Source: a virus. Taken from it: DNA of 64,000 nt. The notes beneath the pieces are model-generated. The model did not search any database, was not told the DNA's origin, and saw nothing but the letters and a program-made list of their open reading frames with translations. How positions within the stretch are numbered: position 1 is the stretch's first letter; every line of letters starts with the position of its first letter. The position numbers and the translations under genes are program-made. The DNA is taken from IMG/VR virus record IMGVR_UViG_3300030108_006260, positions 70,855-134,854 of that record; one strand, 5' to 3'. This document shows positions 8,019 to 57,155 of the stretch, in pieces.

Positions 8019-8093
8019 TGGTGCCCCGAACAGGAATCGAACCTGTGACCACCGGGCTTCAACCGGCCGCTCTACCAACTGAGCTATCGGGGC
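8019..8093 (-). tRNA. tRNA-Phe(GAA)
   Basis: Acceptor GCCCCGA/TCGGGGC, anticodon loop TTGAAGC, canonical D- and T-arms, CCA encoded. Last tRNA of the second array. Confidence 0.95.
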
Positions 8094-8094
8094 G

Positions 8095-8169
8095 TGGCAG
8101 GCCACTAAGGACTTGAACCCTAACTAACGAATTTGGAATTCGTTGTGCTACCAATTACACTAGTGACCT
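8095..8169 (-). tRNA. tRNA-Trp(CCA)
   Basis: Acceptor AGGTCAC/GTGGCCT with one G-U pair, anticodon loop TTCCAAA, discriminator G, CCA encoded. Confidence 0.95.
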
Positions 8170-8170
8170 A

Positions 8171-8246
8171 TGGCGGGAGATGCAGGGTTTGAACCTGCGA
8201 CAATTGAGTTAACAGCTCACCGCTCTACCAACTGAGCTAATCTCCC
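8171..8246 (-). tRNA. tRNA-Asn(GUU), copy 1
   Basis: Acceptor GGGAGAT/ATCTCCC, anticodon loop CTGTTAA, canonical arms, CCA encoded. Confidence 0.95.
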
Positions 8247-8248
8247 TT

Positions 8249-8325
8249 TGGCGGGCCCTGCAAGAATCGAACTTGCCTTATTCTGGTTAACAGCCAGGCG
8301 CACTCACCAGAGGTGCTAAGGACCC
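8249..8325 (-). tRNA. tRNA-Asn(GUU), copy 2
   Basis: Acceptor GGGTCCT/AGGGCCC with one G-U pair, anticodon loop CTGTTAA, CCA encoded. The sequence differs widely from copy 1, so this is not a recent duplication. A gcaggga/tccctgc hairpin follows at 8330-8349. Confidence 0.93.
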
Positions 8326-8376
8326 ATTGTGCAGGGAAGCCACTCCCTGCGGACAAATACGTATTCAGTTTTCAAG

Positions 8377-8451
8377 TGGATCGGGAGGCTGGGTTTGAAC
8401 CAGCGACATACGGAATCAGAACCCGTCGTTCTACCACTGAACTACTCCCGA
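8377..8451 (-). tRNA. tRNA-Gln(CUG)
   Basis: Acceptor TCGGGAG/CTCCCGA, anticodon loop TTCTGAT, discriminator U, CCA encoded. Complements the UUG isoacceptor in the first array. Confidence 0.94.
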
Positions 8452-8452
8452 A

Positions 8453-8528
8453 TGGTGGATCTGTGGGGAATCGAACCCCAAATCGTCCGGTTAAGAGCCG
8501 GCTGCTTTACCATTGAAGCTACAGATCC
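8453..8528 (-). tRNA. tRNA-Lys(CUU)
   Basis: Acceptor GGATCTG/CAGATCC, anticodon loop CTCTTAA, CCA encoded. First tRNA of the second array. It starts about 25 bases past a terminator, so it is either read through or has its own start. Confidence 0.95.
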
Positions 8529-8551
8529 AGTACGAGCCTAAGATATAAAGA

Positions 8552-8586
8552 ACAAAAAAACCGCCGAGGCTAGTGCCTGGGCGGTT
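8552..8586 (-). terminator. Rho-independent terminator
   Basis: On the minus strand, AACCGCC-CAGGC-ACTA-GCCT-CGGCGGTT is followed by seven Ts. A textbook intrinsic terminator closing the small RNA unit at 8552-8745. Confidence 0.9.
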
Positions 8587-8745
8587 CAAAGTAACACTTT
8601 GTCGTTTTACGACAGGGTGGAACCGCACACACCCGTTGAAATATTGGTAGACTGCACATCAAAAGAAAACGCAGCAATACTGTCCCGGCGATACGAGCGC
8701 CAAGCAGAGCTAAGTTTTATATTTTGATGACGTGTCTTCATGACT
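8552..8745 (-). ncRNA. Stand-alone structured small RNA
   Basis: About 190 bases between a consensus-like promoter (8751-8779) and a strong terminator, with no convincing ORF. Predicted helices in order: CAUCAAAA/UUUUGAUG closing a long arm that continues with AAAAC/GUUUU and a GGCG/CGCC hairpin; GGGUG/CACCC; UGUCG/CGACA; AAAGU/ACUUU; then the terminator stem. Size and the long interrupted arm recall 6S RNA, but no 6S-specific feature is established. It lies between the DHH gene and the second tRNA array. Confidence 0.65.
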
Positions 8746-8750
8746 TAGAG

Positions 8751-8779
8751 AGTATGAGGTATGAGTAGATACATGTCAA
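8751..8779 (-). promoter_or_regulatory. Sigma-70 promoter of the small RNA
   Basis: The -35 is a perfect TTGACA (8774-8779), the spacer is 17 bases and the -10 is CATACT (8751-8756). Start expected at about 8743-8745. Confidence 0.75.
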
Positions 8780-8820: not shown

Positions 8821-9642
8821 CTAAAGTGCCCAAGGACCTTCTTCTGACGTGAACCCGGCCGAGTTCCAATGACCGCCTCCTCCTAGAGATCTTGCGAGAG
8901 AAGACACATCAAAGTTAGACCCCTCTTCATCGGAACGCAAGGAGTAAACGAACAATCCGTTGTTTATCTGCCTCCAGCCTACACTGAACAGGCTGTCTTT
9001 AGCCAAGGAGTTTAGTAGCTCTGACACAGCATAGAAAGGTGCGTTCACAACTGGGATGTCTGAGTATCCCTTGAAGGTCGAGTTAATAGCCTGTAGCTTC
9101 ATCTGTTCAACGTAGGAACCCTTGGCACGGAGTATAGCCTCCCCTTCACTACAAACAACTCCTGGATTTGTAGAAAGGCGATGGTCCAAAAGGTTCCAGT
9201 TATCGAAGCTAAAGGTATAGCTGGTGACTACGGCATTGATCTCGACCGACTTCGGCACAGAAAACCTCCACAAATCCCTATCCTCCACACAGTCAACCAA
9301 AAGAGGTCTCTTAGTGTTCGGATGGAAAAAGTCCCAAGACATTCCGGCACCCGACCTATCCATGTCGAAAAAGCAACCGGGCATACCTTCAAGGTCGTCT
9401 TTTGCAGTTAGGTGGTGGTCCAGCACTGTCAAACTTCGTGCCATGTCCGAAAGGAGCATAAGGTCGTCTCTTTTATAAGAGAAGTCAAGGATATAAACGT
9501 CCTTGTCTGTGACATCCGGAATTTCTAGGTCAGAGTAGTTAACGGATTTGTAGTCTGCTCGGTCACCAAACTTCTTGTAAGCAGCCCACGCAGAGGTGAA
9601 CCCGTCGGGACAATCCCCATGGTATAAGACTAAAGTATCCAT
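8821..9642 (-). CDS. DHH/DHHA1-family phosphoesterase
   Basis: 273-residue phosphoesterase of the NrnA/GdpP-like DHH superfamily. LYHGDCPDGFTSAW (about 6-19) gives motif I, ILDFSYKRDD motif II, LDHH (about 74-77) the name motif, and VEDRDLWRF motif IV. The C-terminal GGGGHWNSAGF (about 255-265) is the DHHA1 substrate-binding motif. Family members use two Mn ions to degrade short oligonucleotides, pAp, or pGpG/pApA from cyclic dinucleotides. With a GGDEF-EAL protein nearby, clearing pGpG is a possible role but is inference. A metabolic or nanoRNase role is equally likely. Confidence 0.88.
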   Translation of the reverse strand: MDTLVLYHGDCPDGFTSAWAAYKKFGDRADYKSVNYSDLEIPDVTDKDVYILDFSYKRDDLMLLSDMARSLTVLDHHLTAKDDLEGMPGCFFDMDRSGAGMSWDFFHPNTKRPLLVDCVEDRDLWRFSVPKSVEINAVVTSYTFSFDNWNLLDHRLSTNPGVVCSEGEAILRAKGSYVEQMKLQAINSTFKGYSDIPVVNAPFYAVSELLNSLAKDSLFSVGWRQINNGLFVYSLRSDEEGSNFDVSSLARSLGGGGHWNSAGFTSEEGPWAL

Positions 9643-12506: not shown

Positions 12507-12899
12507 TCACTGATCCTCAACTTCTTTCTGTAGATTTTTTAGATTTTCTATTATGGGGTCGAGATCCGTTTTGAGGATCCTTTCAAGAAGGTACCCATCA
12601 ATAGACTTCTCCTGTGCAGGAGGACCTACCCTTTCTAGGTGGGGAGCACGTCTGTAGAGACGAATAAACACAAGGGGACAGTATTCGTCTCCCTGAGACA
12701 TTCCACGGTCAACTAGACCTGGATAGTTAAACATGTCTTCGGGGTAAAGGACCCTTCGATCTACCCTAAATACTTTCCATATATTCAAAGAAGGGAAATC
12801 AAGCTGGTTTACCACCAGGTCCCCCTTTTTTATAGAAGGGTCCCACTGCTTAGAAGCAATGACGGAAACATTTCCCCTATTCCTCTGCTTCTTGTTCAC
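12507..12899 (-). CDS. Hypothetical protein
   Basis: Unrecognised 130-residue soluble protein. The first part resembles a small beta-barrel (KKGDLVVNQLDFPS...WKVFRV), a pattern seen in SH3-like domains. It ends in a helix (DLDPIIENLKNLQKEVED). GTG start coupled to the previous stop. Confidence 0.65.
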   Translation of the reverse strand: MNKKQRNRGNVSVIASKQWDPSIKKGDLVVNQLDFPSLNIWKVFRVDRRVLYPEDMFNYPGLVDRGMSQGDEYCPLVFIRLYRRAPHLERVGPPAQEKSIDGYLLERILKTDLDPIIENLKNLQKEVEDQ

Positions 12900-13468
12900 T
12901 TATAGATTACCTCACAGCTAACAGATGCAACATCTTCCTTGAGGTCTACATTAACTTGAAGAACCTGTACTGATTCAAACAATCCTGTTCCTGATACAGC
13001 AGGGTCTAGGCAGTAGGCTGAGAATGTTTCTTTTAACTTAGAAACTGTCCAAGTAGCCTCGGGATTCGGAGGAATTCTCAAATCCTCCAAAGGTCCTGAG
13101 CACTTAAGTGTAACTACACCGTGGCCCGAAAAAGACGGTCGGAGATCGGATGAAACTTCCCAAGTGAAAATCCTCTCAGCGACTTTCTTAAGGTGAGGAG
13201 TGAGATCATGGGCCGGACTAACTAAAACAGGTTTAGCTACACATACTCTAGTGTCTGTCGCAGACACTGGCTTAAACTTGTATCTAGGGTCTTTGAGGAG
13301 GCTCTTTTTAAGTGATGATAGCTTCTTCCACTCTTTCGACCTAATACTCAACCCCTGAGTCTTAATGAGCGCCTGTAGACGAGTTAGTTCTTTTTCCACG
13401 TCAGTAGGAAATGAATACTCCTCGAAAGACAAGTTCCCAAACTCACTGTCAGGGACCTTAGGATCCAC
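12896..13468 (-). CDS. Hypothetical protein
   Basis: Unrecognised 190-residue protein. An N-terminal helical, Lys-rich half (LTRLQALIKTQGLSIRSKEW) is followed by a beta-rich half. GTG start with GGAG seven bases upstream. Part of a run of small coupled unknown genes between 11.6 and 15 kb, likely one operon. Confidence 0.65.
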   Translation of the reverse strand: MDPKVPDSEFGNLSFEEYSFPTDVEKELTRLQALIKTQGLSIRSKEWKKLSSLKKSLLKDPRYKFKPVSATDTRVCVAKPVLVSPAHDLTPHLKKVAERIFTWEVSSDLRPSFSGHGVVTLKCSGPLEDLRIPPNPEATWTVSKLKETFSAYCLDPAVSGTGLFESVQVLQVNVDLKEDVASVSCEVIYK

Positions 13469-30514: not shown

Positions 30515-30541
30515 CTAATAATACTCCATAATAGGTCTTAA

Positions 30542-30580
30542 GTAAATAGACCCTAACAAAAGATGCTAGGGTCTATTTAC
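30542..30580 (-). terminator. Strong intergenic hairpin, possible terminator
   Basis: A 13-bp perfect stem (gtaaatagaccct/agggtctatttac) with a 13-base loop, between the acidic-repeat gene and the tail chaperone gene. No U-tract follows, so it may be a processing or attenuation element. A second small hairpin (gcctt/aaggc) lies at 30591-30606. Confidence 0.5.
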
Positions 30581-30630
30581 AGAAACAACGCCTTTTATTT
30601 AAGGCTATGTTTACTAAAGAAAATCAATAC

Positions 30631-53006: not shown

Positions 53007-56000
53007 CTAGTCTTCCACTTGAAATTCTGGACTAGTTTCAGCAATAACGTGCCAGGGAGTCCCAGATTGAAGCATGGAGTCCCACTCTTTACACCTATCA
53101 AAGATTGGCCTAAGTCCACTACCTACTCCATCCCACCCCAGCATGTGACCCCATCGTACACCAAAGTCGTAATCAATTTCCATGGGGACAATCATGTCAA
53201 TACCGAATTCCTCTTTAAGGAAAGAAGGAACTTGGTCTACCATCTTTTCCTGGAGAACGGATACTACCTCCTGAACCATGTCAAAGTCCATAGGAACTTC
53301 CATTGTGATAGCATCATGAACGCAGTTAATAATCTTATAGGGTCGATCATTTCTCTCTATCCAGTCCTGGATGGCCCAGGCACACAAAGCGGTAGTATCA
53401 CTACTCACTGCCTGTATGGGACTGTTACGTGCTCTTCTCTTAGCTCCATTCTCGTCCTGTTCAAACAGGTCTCTCAAGTGCCTAACTCTACCCATAGGAG
53501 TAGAAACGAACCCCATAGACTCAGCTTCTCGTTCGATGTCACTAAGCCACTGGCCTGCTCTCTCAAATTCATTAACGAAGGTACCCTGTAGCTTTAGGGC
53601 TTCGTCGGGTGTAATGCCCAGAAGAGAAGCCAGGGTCTTAAAGTGCTGACCATAGATAGATCCGAAACACAAACTCTTTGCCCTCTTACGTTCATCCCCC
53701 GTTACATCATAAACAGACTTCTGAAACATGATCGAGGCCACCTTCTTATGTATATCGGCCTCTGCTTTTACTCGATTACCTAGTTCTTCGTCCCCTGTAA
53801 GTTTATATTCGTCACGAAGATTTTTCATTTCGTGGAACAACCGGGCATACTGAGTGTCACCCGCAAGCTGAGCCCACCAACGAACCTCTGCCTGACCAAA
53901 GTCGCACTCTACAAGGATATGTCCAGGCGAAGCGCCATAAATAGACCTAATAGCTGCTTTGGCGTTGTTACCCTTTCCCTTGGGGAGCTGCTGGAGGTTT
54001 GGGTCCGAAGAATTGTGCACTACAATTCCATCTACAAGGAATGACCTAGTAGCAGGAACCTCTAGGTCGTACACCTTCTGTGCTCCCAACGATTCCACTC
54101 TAATGATTTCAAATGACTTCGAATTTGATTCTAACGCCCAGTGAACAAATTCAGCGGACTCGCCGTGCTCTGGCCCAACTGCCGAAGTTACTAGGGACTG
54201 TACCTTCCTGGTGATCCTAGCCGTCTTTCTGTTTCGGGCTTTATGTAATCTATGATAATCAGGTGAGGAGCACCCTTTTCTTCCGATCAAGTTATGATGA
54301 ATCTTAACAGGCTTCCAAAATGAGTCAAAGTCAAACCAGGAGGGCTTGAATACACCAAGGTGAATGGAATGCTTACGAATCTGATCTCTTTTTAGAGAGG
54401 ACCAAAAAAGCCATGAAAGATCTTGGTCATTAGATACCAACACTGAGTACTTCGTACTGTTACGGTCGGGCCTCTTACTACTGGATATAGAATGGTGAAT
54501 TCCCAAGCTAGAAAGGAGCAAACCTACTCCCTCTGCAAGTTGCCTGCTCTCGGTAGAAAGTCTAGGATCTCCAGATGAAGACCCCGCGTCCCCTTCAAAT
54601 AGACCCTTCAAAAAGGATCGTCTCTCAGACAAACCAGAAGAGAAAACAGATTCAGGAACTAAAGCATTCCTAGACTTGTACCCAAAACCGTTCTCGACTA
54701 GCCAACGAGATAAATCAACAGAACTACATTCCAGGGTAGGGGAACCGTTCTCGTAGTAAGAAAACTCTACCCCAAAGACTTCCTTCCACTCTGACGTGAG
54801 AAAATCTCTCAGGGGTTTTTCATCCCATCCCAGGGCAATGATAACCTTAGATGGAACCTTTCCCTTCCTGTTAGGTTCTTTCTTTGTTGGTCGTAGATTG
54901 TTGTATCCTATACACCCCTCAGCAACAAAGTGTCCGAGAAGGAATGCAACTCTGCTGTCCATAGTGGAGGGGAAGGTAGGAGTGTTGGATCGTCCTACAA
55001 TAGTAGAAGGGGGTGATAGAGTAGAATGATTTGATACATCAGGTCCCTCTCTACCAGAAATGTAGAGGTCGTCACCCTCTTTCAGGTTCTGTGCCTCCGT
55101 CCACTTTCCATCTGAGAATACACGATGAAGGGGTGAACATCGGAGCTTTTTCCCGTTAGATAAAGTGAATTCAAGTATTTCTTTAGTTCCAGCTTCCCAA
55201 GCAGACTTAACTTCTTGAATCCCACGATCAGTTTGTATCAGATCCCCAGGAACTACCTTTTCAATAGGAACGAGACCAGAGTCCGTAGCTATTCTTGTTC
55301 CAGCAGGAAGACAAGCCAAGCGCCCCGTTACTGTGCGAGTAGCATGGAATCTTGCGTGTATCTTACCGTCTTGTTTGTTATCTGGTTTGGATACCAATAT
55401 GTCGCTAACAGAGTCCAGGTACGAAGAGATCAGCTTATCTAGACCCGTATACTCCTTGTATAGAGAAACTACCGGATGTTTCTTGTAATGGTCAAGGTAG
55501 GCTTTATCAATCTGAGGCTCGTCCGTCTTCTTTGAAAAAGATATAGGCTCCAGTCCGCAAGCATCTACAAACAAACGAAGCTTGTGCTCCTTTTTACGGA
55601 GGGAGAAAACCCATGGCTTCTTTCCAAAAAGAGGAGTCATCCCTGCTGTCTTACTGTCCTTCTCAAGAAGGATCTCATTCGCTTTCTTGGCCTCTTCGGA
55701 AGCCTTTATTAAACCAGGTATCTCATTGTACCTTGAAATAATAGGAGAATCTTCTGACTTTAGATAGGACAACTGATCTACATCAGTAGCAAACCCATTT
55801 ATGCTCATCTTCGTAAGAAGATGAAAAATACGGCTATAAAACTTTTTAGCGAAAGGAACAGCTGAAGAGTACCCCTGCCTCTCTAGCCAGAGTCGGTAGA
55901 AGTCGAAGATCCTTCTCGTGATGTAGGCGTCTGTTCCTCCGTATTCAGAAAGACGGTCGAGAGAAAGATTCCAAAGGCTACCACCAGAGGCGCCAGAACG

Positions 56001-57155
56001 AGCAGCAATGGCATCAGATAACTCCGTATCATATGTATAAAAACCAAGAAGCTCACGTGCCAAAGTTTTAAGTGCAAAACTGGTGAATACTGCGGACTTC
56101 TTGCCTCCGTCATCATCACCACACTGATTCTCGTCCTGTAGGTAGGCCAAGAACATCGTGTCAACTACTGGCTTTGCGATCTTTTTTAGCTTAAGGAAGT
56201 TGAATGTGATACCTCCATCGAACTGCGCGTTGTGCATCAGCCAGAAAGGTATCTTTGTCTTTCTACTTCCCAGGAGGCGTCTAAGACGCTTCCTTACGTG
56301 TCTAAGTTCTTCTTTAGACCAAGGGGACTCCCAGTGCTGAAGAGGAATAACGTGTGCTTTATCGTTTGAAGCAGAAAACTGGATAGTAGCTACACGGTTC
56401 CGCGCAACATGATTTAGGTTTTCTGTCTCATAGTCGAGGGACACATATGTATCGCAGTCCTGCTCATACCAGTCCATCAACTCATTGAATCTGTCCAGAT
56501 CCAATATTGTCTCAATTTCTCCTTTAGCAGAGAAAGAGGTAGTCTTACCGGAAGCGAACCTTCCTGCTGACCTCATGTGCCTATAGAAGCGTCTCCTCTG
56601 CGTGGCAGACTCGCTTCTTAGGTAGGTAGAGGGAGGAAGCGTAACAAGATGGGTACGCCCGCTTTTAGTGATGTAAGCGTGCCCTCGTAGAGATCCTACG
56701 TTTACTTTTTCCCATTCTGGGTTCTCGTTCAAAACCCTTAGTGTAGTGTTGCCCATCATAACGACAACTTTTGGGTTAAGGGCCTCTATGTCCTGCTTGA
56801 TATAGTTAGAACATGCGGAAATCTCTTCTGTGGTAGGAGGCCTGTTAGACCCGTCATCAGCCACAGGACGACAACGTACTAGATTTGCCAGTGCGTAGGA
56901 CCCATCACTACCAGCTCTCTTTAAAGCAGAGAATATTTCCTTGCCACTAGACCCTGCGAATGGCATACCTAGAACATCCTCTGTCCTACTGGGCATGTCA
57001 CCTATGACCATAACGTCTACTTCGGGTGTTTTCTCGTCAGGACCTACCCTATCATAAACAACGTCAGTAGGTATGTACTGTTTTCGTACACGCTTTGATC
57101 TGTATAGGGGGCAGGCACTACAAAAGTCCTGGTCTTGATAGAGAGTGAGTCTCAT
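53007..57155 (-). CDS. UDG / exonuclease / family A DNA polymerase with intein
   Basis: 1382 residues as encoded, 948 after removal of an intein (615-1048). Residues 1-195 are a family 4/5-type uracil-DNA glycosylase (four Cys for Fe-S: C12, C15, C95, C115; motif PFAGSSGKEI). Then a DnaQ-like 3'-5' exonuclease (SLDYETENL, HNAQFD, TDAYIT), then the family A polymerase. Motif A reads VECDFGQAEVR (D1085). Motif B has KRAKSLCFGSIYGQ. Motif C is VHDAI rather than the usual VHDEL. It may remove uracil ahead of synthesis. Probably the replicative polymerase. Confidence 0.93.
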   Translation of the reverse strand: MRLTLYQDQDFCSACPLYRSKRVRKQYIPTDVVYDRVGPDEKTPEVDVMVIGDMPSRTEDVLGMPFAGSSGKEIFSALKRAGSDGSYALANLVRCRPVADDGSNRPPTTEEISACSNYIKQDIEALNPKVVVMMGNTTLRVLNENPEWEKVNVGSLRGHAYITKSGRTHLVTLPPSTYLRSESATQRRRFYRHMRSAGRFASGKTTSFSAKGEIETILDLDRFNELMDWYEQDCDTYVSLDYETENLNHVARNRVATIQFSASNDKAHVIPLQHWESPWSKEELRHVRKRLRRLLGSRKTKIPFWLMHNAQFDGGITFNFLKLKKIAKPVVDTMFLAYLQDENQCGDDDGGKKSAVFTSFALKTLARELLGFYTYDTELSDAIAARSGASGGSLWNLSLDRLSEYGGTDAYITRRIFDFYRLWLERQGYSSAVPFAKKFYSRIFHLLTKMSINGFATDVDQLSYLKSEDSPIISRYNEIPGLIKASEEAKKANEILLEKDSKTAGMTPLFGKKPWVFSLRKKEHKLRLFVDACGLEPISFSKKTDEPQIDKAYLDHYKKHPVVSLYKEYTGLDKLISSYLDSVSDILVSKPDNKQDGKIHARFHATRTVTGRLACLPAGTRIATDSGLVPIEKVVPGDLIQTDRGIQEVKSAWEAGTKEILEFTLSNGKKLRCSPLHRVFSDGKWTEAQNLKEGDDLYISGREGPDVSNHSTLSPPSTIVGRSNTPTFPSTMDSRVAFLLGHFVAEGCIGYNNLRPTKKEPNRKGKVPSKVIIALGWDEKPLRDFLTSEWKEVFGVEFSYYENGSPTLECSSVDLSRWLVENGFGYKSRNALVPESVFSSGLSERRSFLKGLFEGDAGSSSGDPRLSTESRQLAEGVGLLLSSLGIHHSISSSKRPDRNSTKYSVLVSNDQDLSWLFWSSLKRDQIRKHSIHLGVFKPSWFDFDSFWKPVKIHHNLIGRKGCSSPDYHRLHKARNRKTARITRKVQSLVTSAVGPEHGESAEFVHWALESNSKSFEIIRVESLGAQKVYDLEVPATRSFLVDGIVVHNSSDPNLQQLPKGKGNNAKAAIRSIYGASPGHILVECDFGQAEVRWWAQLAGDTQYARLFHEMKNLRDEYKLTGDEELGNRVKAEADIHKKVASIMFQKSVYDVTGDERKRAKSLCFGSIYGQHFKTLASLLGITPDEALKLQGTFVNEFERAGQWLSDIEREAESMGFVSTPMGRVRHLRDLFEQDENGAKRRARNSPIQAVSSDTTALCAWAIQDWIERNDRPYKIINCVHDAITMEVPMDFDMVQEVVSVLQEKMVDQVPSFLKEEFGIDMIVPMEIDYDFGVRWGHMLGWDGVGSGLRPIFDRCKEWDSMLQSGTPWHVIAETSPEFQVED
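54012..55313 (-). mobile_element. LAGLIDADG-type intein in the DNA polymerase
   Basis: 434 residues, from Cys615 (CLPAGTRIATDSG, block A) to His1047-Asn1048, followed by Ser. Splicing would join TGRLA to SSDPNLQQLP, restoring the conserved family A motif TGRLSSSDPNLQQ. The middle has two LAGLIDADG-like helices (FLLGHFVAEGCI about 738-749 and FLKGLFEGDAG about 848-858), suggesting an active homing domain. Block G reads VVHNS. Confidence 0.92.

Follow-up and report, generated by a model that had tools for sequence, protein, structure and literature searches.

Between a protein gene and six tRNA genes, the DNA of a large phage carries a gap that resembles a transcription unit, and the question arises whether this unit specifies a small RNA that acts elsewhere or a leader that controls the tRNAs behind it. 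The DNA analyzed is a stretch of 64 kb, in the following called the window, from an IMG/VR virus record of 240,443 bases, which was apparently derived from an uncultivated large phage and contains at least 36 tRNA genes. The unit and all genes and elements of the window described below are on the minus strand. The gap that houses the unit comprises 292 nt and is the largest one called in the window, the window's cut edge aside. Its upstream neighbour is a gene for a DHH-phosphoesterase-like protein (8821..9642, stop at 8821), which was used as an anchor for synteny. On the other side it is bordered by the gene for tRNA-Lys(CTT) (8453..8528), the first of the array Lys, Gln, Asn, Asn, Trp, Phe (8019-8528), which has the same orientation as the unit.

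Several further features of this phage were observed. A protein of 666 aa (870-2870) contains GGDEF and EAL domains, and thus an interference with cyclic-di-GMP signalling of the host is possible. A protein of 1382 aa (53007-57155) combines, as judged by eye, a uracil-DNA-glycosylase-like part with a family-A DNA polymerase, and the latter is split by an intein-like segment. An intergenic hairpin of 17 bp (GTAAATAGACCCTAGCA..., 30515-30630) has a fold z-score of -7.9 and is devoid of a long U-tract. Outside the window, a group of odd tRNA-like genes that had not been called by ARAGORN was noticed on the minus strand at L007 6040-6645 (genome 46040-46645). Two of them are tRNA-like folds with about 60-70 nt inserted ahead of the T arm; the third tRNA-like fold is circularly permuted, and the long stem that closes it ends in a U-tract. 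Each time, a CTTACA[AC]GCA-like word precedes them.

Promoter, fold and terminator of the predicted RNA

The near-consensus promoter that had been described in an earlier note on this DNA was verified. It is a sigma70-type promoter-like site (8751..8779) composed of TTGACA (8774-8779), a spacer of 17 bp and CATACT (8751-8756), and it matches the consensus at 10 of 12 positions. The predicted transcription start is at about 8743-8746. Sites of such quality were present in 6 of the 842 tiles of 76 nt on the unit's strand of the window (about 0.7%), and the whole 240-kb record contains only four intergenic minus-strand sites with at least 10/12 matches, including the site at 8779.

The terminated form of the predicted non-coding RNA (8555..8745) would have a length of about 185-190 nt. 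Its sequence is present in a single copy in the genome, and the minimum free energy (MFE) of the whole RNA has a z-score of -4.66, below all 200 dinucleotide shuffles. The first domain is a long imperfect rod (8657..8729) of 73 nt with 27 bp in five segments (8+5+4+3+7), small internal loops and an apical loop of 7 nt; the longest unpaired stretch inside it comprises 4 nt. The rod has a fold z-score of -4.57 (0 of 200 shuffles), and its MFE structure accounts for 54% of the ensemble. At the other end an intrinsic terminator is located (8554..8587), with an AACCGCC-AGGC stem, an ACUA loop and a tract of seven U (8554-8560). With about -20 kcal/mol and a z-score of -5.5 it ranks as the third strongest terminator found in the record, and its description as a textbook terminator was borne out. 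The segment between rod and terminator has a z-score of -0.62, which corresponds to chance stability, and forms competing folds. Of the five consecutive helices that had been proposed, the rod and the terminator were thus recovered, and the three middle ones were not. The z-scores were compared by a scan over the gaps of the record, and equal or lower values were found in other gaps, so the z-score by itself does not single out this locus.

The statement that the unit lacks an ORF is literally incorrect, because an ATG at 8741 opens 44 codons (8607..8741), which cover a large part of the RNA, but this ORF does not look coding. Its codon score of -0.217 is under the 1st percentile (-0.104) of true 44-codon gene pieces, and no plausible Shine-Dalgarno site was found by eye. 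A leader peptide encoded by this ORF was rejected on the basis of the codon score.

The sequence gives good support to a discrete transcript that is structured and non-coding and has a promoter and a terminator of its own, and it is quite probable that such a transcription unit is real, if the possibilities of an action in cis and in trans are added up. The proposed separation from both neighbours turned out to be doubtful downstream, where the tRNA array starts 25 nt past the end of the U-tract, and the earlier note overstated how self-contained the unit is.

A candidate switch ahead of the tRNA genes

Inspection of the middle segment revealed a candidate antiterminator hairpin (8581..8626) of 16 bp, which is exclusive with the terminator. 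Its core is formed by GCGGUUC (8620-8626), a perfect 7-nt complement of the 5' arm of the terminator, GAACCGC (8581-8587), and is extended by the pairs CAC/GUG and UGUCGU/ACGACA. The energies of the two hairpins are -17.9 kcal/mol (antiterminator) and -19.9 kcal/mol (terminator). In addition, a candidate anti-antiterminator hairpin, GGGUG...CACCC (8615..8634, about -7 kcal/mol), could hide the 5' strand of the antiterminator in the predicted fold; it is weak and faces competing folds.

A 7-nt complement occurred by chance in 1.05% of shuffles and in 0.9% of random genome segments, and the complements at seven other strong terminators of the phage were only 3-4 nt long in each case. The energy of segment plus arm was matched by 4% of the shuffles, the energy gain alone by 22%. 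The support for the antiterminator is therefore moderate, as the pairing was spotted post hoc and its chance level of about 1-4% is uncorrected for the search.

At equilibrium the terminator fold is favoured over the antiterminator fold by 9 kcal/mol (-36.7 versus -27.5 kcal/mol). In MFE predictions of truncated transcripts, pairing of the antiterminator type, in which the upstream strand is paired with the terminator arm or with its GGU/ACU core, prevailed from 166 to 180 nt: the 7-bp antiterminator pairing was present at 166 and 175 nt, and a related fold was obtained at 170 and 180 nt. From about 184 nt onward the terminator became the MFE structure. The modelled succession of antiterminator and terminator would be the order that an attenuator requires. 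A ligand-binding domain or a leader peptide was not recognised in the RNA.

Immediately behind the terminator, adjoining the end of its U-tract, the boxA-like element TGTTCTTTA was found (8546..8554); TGYTCTTTA occurs at no other intergenic position of the record. From its second base onward TGTTCTTTA is identical to the first eight letters of GYTCTTTAANA, which has been published as the boxA consensus of gamma-proteobacteria (PMC5725501), and only the GYTCTTTA part was matched; a boxA function is suggested by analogy to the boxA consensus of rRNA operons. In the spacer after the tRNA-Gln gene a second motif, TTGAAAACTGAATA (8362..8375), resembles an element of the 16S-23S spacer. It has one exact occurrence, and a TTGACAACTGAATA version is present in a syntenic non-coding region of two relatives. 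The joined word TGTTCTTTGAAAACTGAATA, which includes TTGAAAACTGAATA, is present in numerous genomes of bacteria. Of 84 matches that were inspected, 14 were situated 65-532 nt past the 3' end of a 16S rRNA, in the 16S-23S spacers of several bacteria, the remaining matches being unclassified. By resemblance only, TGTTCTTTA and TTGAAAACTGAATA may be regarded as rRNA-operon-like signals. As a separate observation, the word TTGA[AC]AACTGAATA was encountered repeatedly in the non-coding DNA of several phages (L097 2021-2568, window 8362-8375, L041 8892-8905, L043 8215-8228). At L097 it is present four times with small variation, once directly after a tRNA-like sequence.

The 15 tRNA arrays of the record that were examined were compared with regard to their upstream regions. 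A TTGACA site with at least 10/12 matches within 300 nt upstream was present only at two of them, namely the six-tRNA array and an array at L007 6772 (site 35 nt before the tRNA), and the 13 others were without such a leader. The other arrays are located among genes on the same strand, with which they may be co-transcribed. A co-transcript that arrived at the six-tRNA array from the DHH side would meet the terminator first, and besides the site at 8779 not a single promoter-like site of the scanned kind lies within 300 nt upstream of this array.

According to the favoured explanation, the unit acts as a structured leader that has its own promoter and gates the six-tRNA array by a choice between terminator and antiterminator; the probability of this explanation is estimated at roughly 40%. 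An upstream promoter on the same strand and an intrinsic terminator were found ahead of the tRNAs, together with a predicted exclusive antiterminator. Both the promoter and the terminator clearly stand out from the rest of the genome, and the terminator is placed between the promoter at 8779 and the tRNA-Lys gene; both facts were counted in favour of a leader. Judged from the sequence, the exclusive antiterminator, the boxA-like element and the adjacent tRNAs speak no less for a cis-acting leader or attenuator than for the RNA suggested in the earlier note. Several points count against the leader. The antiterminator was spotted post hoc and is the weaker fold at equilibrium; homologues, and with them covariation, are missing, as are a recognisable ligand-binding domain and a leader peptide; and the 13 other arrays do without such a leader. 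A boxA that is placed past the terminator would be unable to carry the polymerase through that terminator, and the tRNAs might rely on a promoter type outside the repertoire of the scan.

The promoter, the rod, the terminator, the exclusive antiterminator pairing, the boxA-like word and the order of the tRNAs can be read directly from the DNA. We infer from them transcription, read-through and switching, the latter with regard to an RNA that is without detectable relatives. On the minus strand, a host-type RNA polymerase would initiate at about 8744 and would synthesize the rod first and then the choice point. By default the more stable terminator fold would form, and a stable RNA of about 185 nt would be released. 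If the antiterminator hairpin (8581-8626) were held, the polymerase would read through, encounter the boxA-like element and transcribe the tRNAs. Possible triggers of the switch would be a protein bound to the rod, a tRNA, pausing of the polymerase, or antitermination factors.

Relatives and competing explanations

Relatives were obtained with topoisomerase and DHH alignments, and the nearest ones used had about 43-54% identity in conserved proteins. Single protein queries with the DHH protein and the RNA ligase yielded no matches. A blastn search with the RNA revealed no homologue in INPHARED or in the related phage records. A covariance model, R1, which was built from the single sequence, found no homologue in the phage's own record and seven related phage records, nor in 31 loci with a common rod-apex pattern and 80 DHH-linked loci. 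A search with a terminator-like pattern yielded one inverted-repeat match, which lies in an unrelated context and was discarded. Rfam searches at the gathering thresholds and at E<=10 returned only tRNAs and sub-threshold matches that were judged to be chance; in this covariance search, which the earlier note had proposed as a check, the RNA matched no family even at E=10.

In second place, as a tentative alternative to the leader, the unit could be an autonomous small RNA gene, whose RNA of about 185 nt acts in trans by binding a host or phage protein, or an RNA, and leaves the tRNA array to be expressed independently. It would have its own promoter, a strong terminator and a rod with a z-score of -4.6, and nearly all transcripts should terminate at equilibrium. 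On the other hand, the lack of homologues in INPHARED, in the related phage records and at the 80 DHH-linked loci argues against it, as does the middle segment, which is unstructured or switchable and adds no compact fold. Complementarity to the tRNAs and translation starts of the phage, the only sequences compared, was likewise at chance level.

It is unlikely that the gap contains no functional RNA at all and consists of the terminator of the DHH operon plus a promoter-like site and a rod that arose by chance in a spacer insulating the tRNA array. This would agree with the zero conservation in all searches, with the equal or lower fold z-scores of other gaps and with the number of promoter-like words, which over the initial 16 kb as a whole is not in excess over chance (14 observed versus 19 expected). 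However, a promoter found in about 0.7% of the tiles, a rod equalled by 0 of 200 shuffles and a top-ranking terminator come together within 230 nt and in the appropriate order, and the terminator lies about 230 nt past the DHH stop, which is far for a simple operon end.

The relatives L041 and L043 drew attention to Y RNAs. Downstream of the DHH gene, with no or two intervening ORFs, both have a promoter-like site, then a long rod and a hairpin whose end is formed by TTGACAACTGAATA, and finally a Y-RNA-like module. RNAs that resemble bacterial Y RNAs (YrlA, RF02553) occur in relatives downstream of the same DHH gene, and relatives also encode Ro60-like proteins. That the RNA of the window is a diverged Y RNA or another Ro60-associated RNA is nevertheless very improbable, and this identity was largely refuted. 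Weak RF02553 matches near the RNA (window 8066-8485) fall into the tRNA array and none into the RNA itself, a tRNA-like module and the Ro-binding motif G-N-CGAA-(N)-G are absent from it, and a Ro60 gene was not found in the record of this phage. Alignment of the RNA with the rod/Y-RNA regions of L041 and L043 was at chance level (p 0.54 and 0.72), so that the claim is limited to a positional analogy. The two-sequence alignment of the L041 and L043 rods was unreliable.

The Ro60 and Y-RNA-like genes of the relatives are a by-catch that is separate from the RNA of the window. Three large uncultivated related phages, G003, G001 and G002, encode Ro60-like proteins (L045 820-2445, L046 811-2487 and L047 742-2607) with matches to Pfam vWA_Ro60 and TROVE; a TROVE protein has been reported for a minor fraction of the jumbo phages (PMC7824862). 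The same three genomes contain several Y-RNA-like matches each, with at most 61.7 bits, under the cut-off of 69 bits. Such matches are located at L049-L051, L053-L055, L041 2341-2475 and 8725-8876, and L043 11202-11312. As seen by eye, L041 8885-8700 contains a tRNA-like module in permuted order (T arm, acceptor hairpin, D arm); its closing stem, GUGACGA/UCGUCAC, comes with GACGAAUG, which is of the Ro-binding type. Upstream of the DHH gene, L041 has a tmRNA gene (12644-13041, Rfam tmRNA 108.7 bits) with the predicted tag ANNVVSLFGNVVANDNGTAEPLPLAA.

The 6S-like, polymerase-binding RNA of the earlier note is the least credible identity of all: a size of about 185 nt, a rod-like part and an independent gene with promoter and terminator would fit, but 6S RNA (SsrS) is defined by an open central bubble that mimics an open promoter, whereas the 73-nt rod has no large central bubble and no Rfam 6S model matched at E up to 10.

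Known regulatory systems and phage tRNAs

The proposed leader shares its layout with attenuators of the trp type, T-boxes and riboswitch platforms, in which a promoter is followed by a structured 5' domain, a terminator whose 5' arm is common to the antiterminator, and then the genes. It differs from them in that the regulated genes would be phage tRNAs and in that a known ligand domain, a T-box match, a leader peptide and homologues are missing. A T-box or another known riboswitch was dismissed, as no leader family of Rfam matched. A likeness may also exist to the antitermination of rRNA and tRNA operons (boxA, NusB-S10), as the boxA-like TGTTCTTTA precedes a non-coding operon that also contains TTGAAAACTGAATA. 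In contrast to these operons, the boxA-like word of the phage is past the terminator, and a distance of about 170 nt separates it from TTGAAAACTGAATA.

Dozens of tRNAs are common in large phages, and to our knowledge little is known about how phage tRNA arrays are switched on. It is conceivable, if doubtful, that the phage times its own tRNA production by an attenuator, in which the rod would be a new sensing domain for the state of the host or of the infection, an rRNA-like, boxA-bearing tRNA operon would be freed, and the terminated leader would itself be a stable RNA. If the unit encoded an autonomous RNA instead, it would be a lineage-specific small RNA of phages without known relatives. 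A leader with a choice between terminator and antiterminator would make the regulation of phage tRNAs testable by simple mutation.
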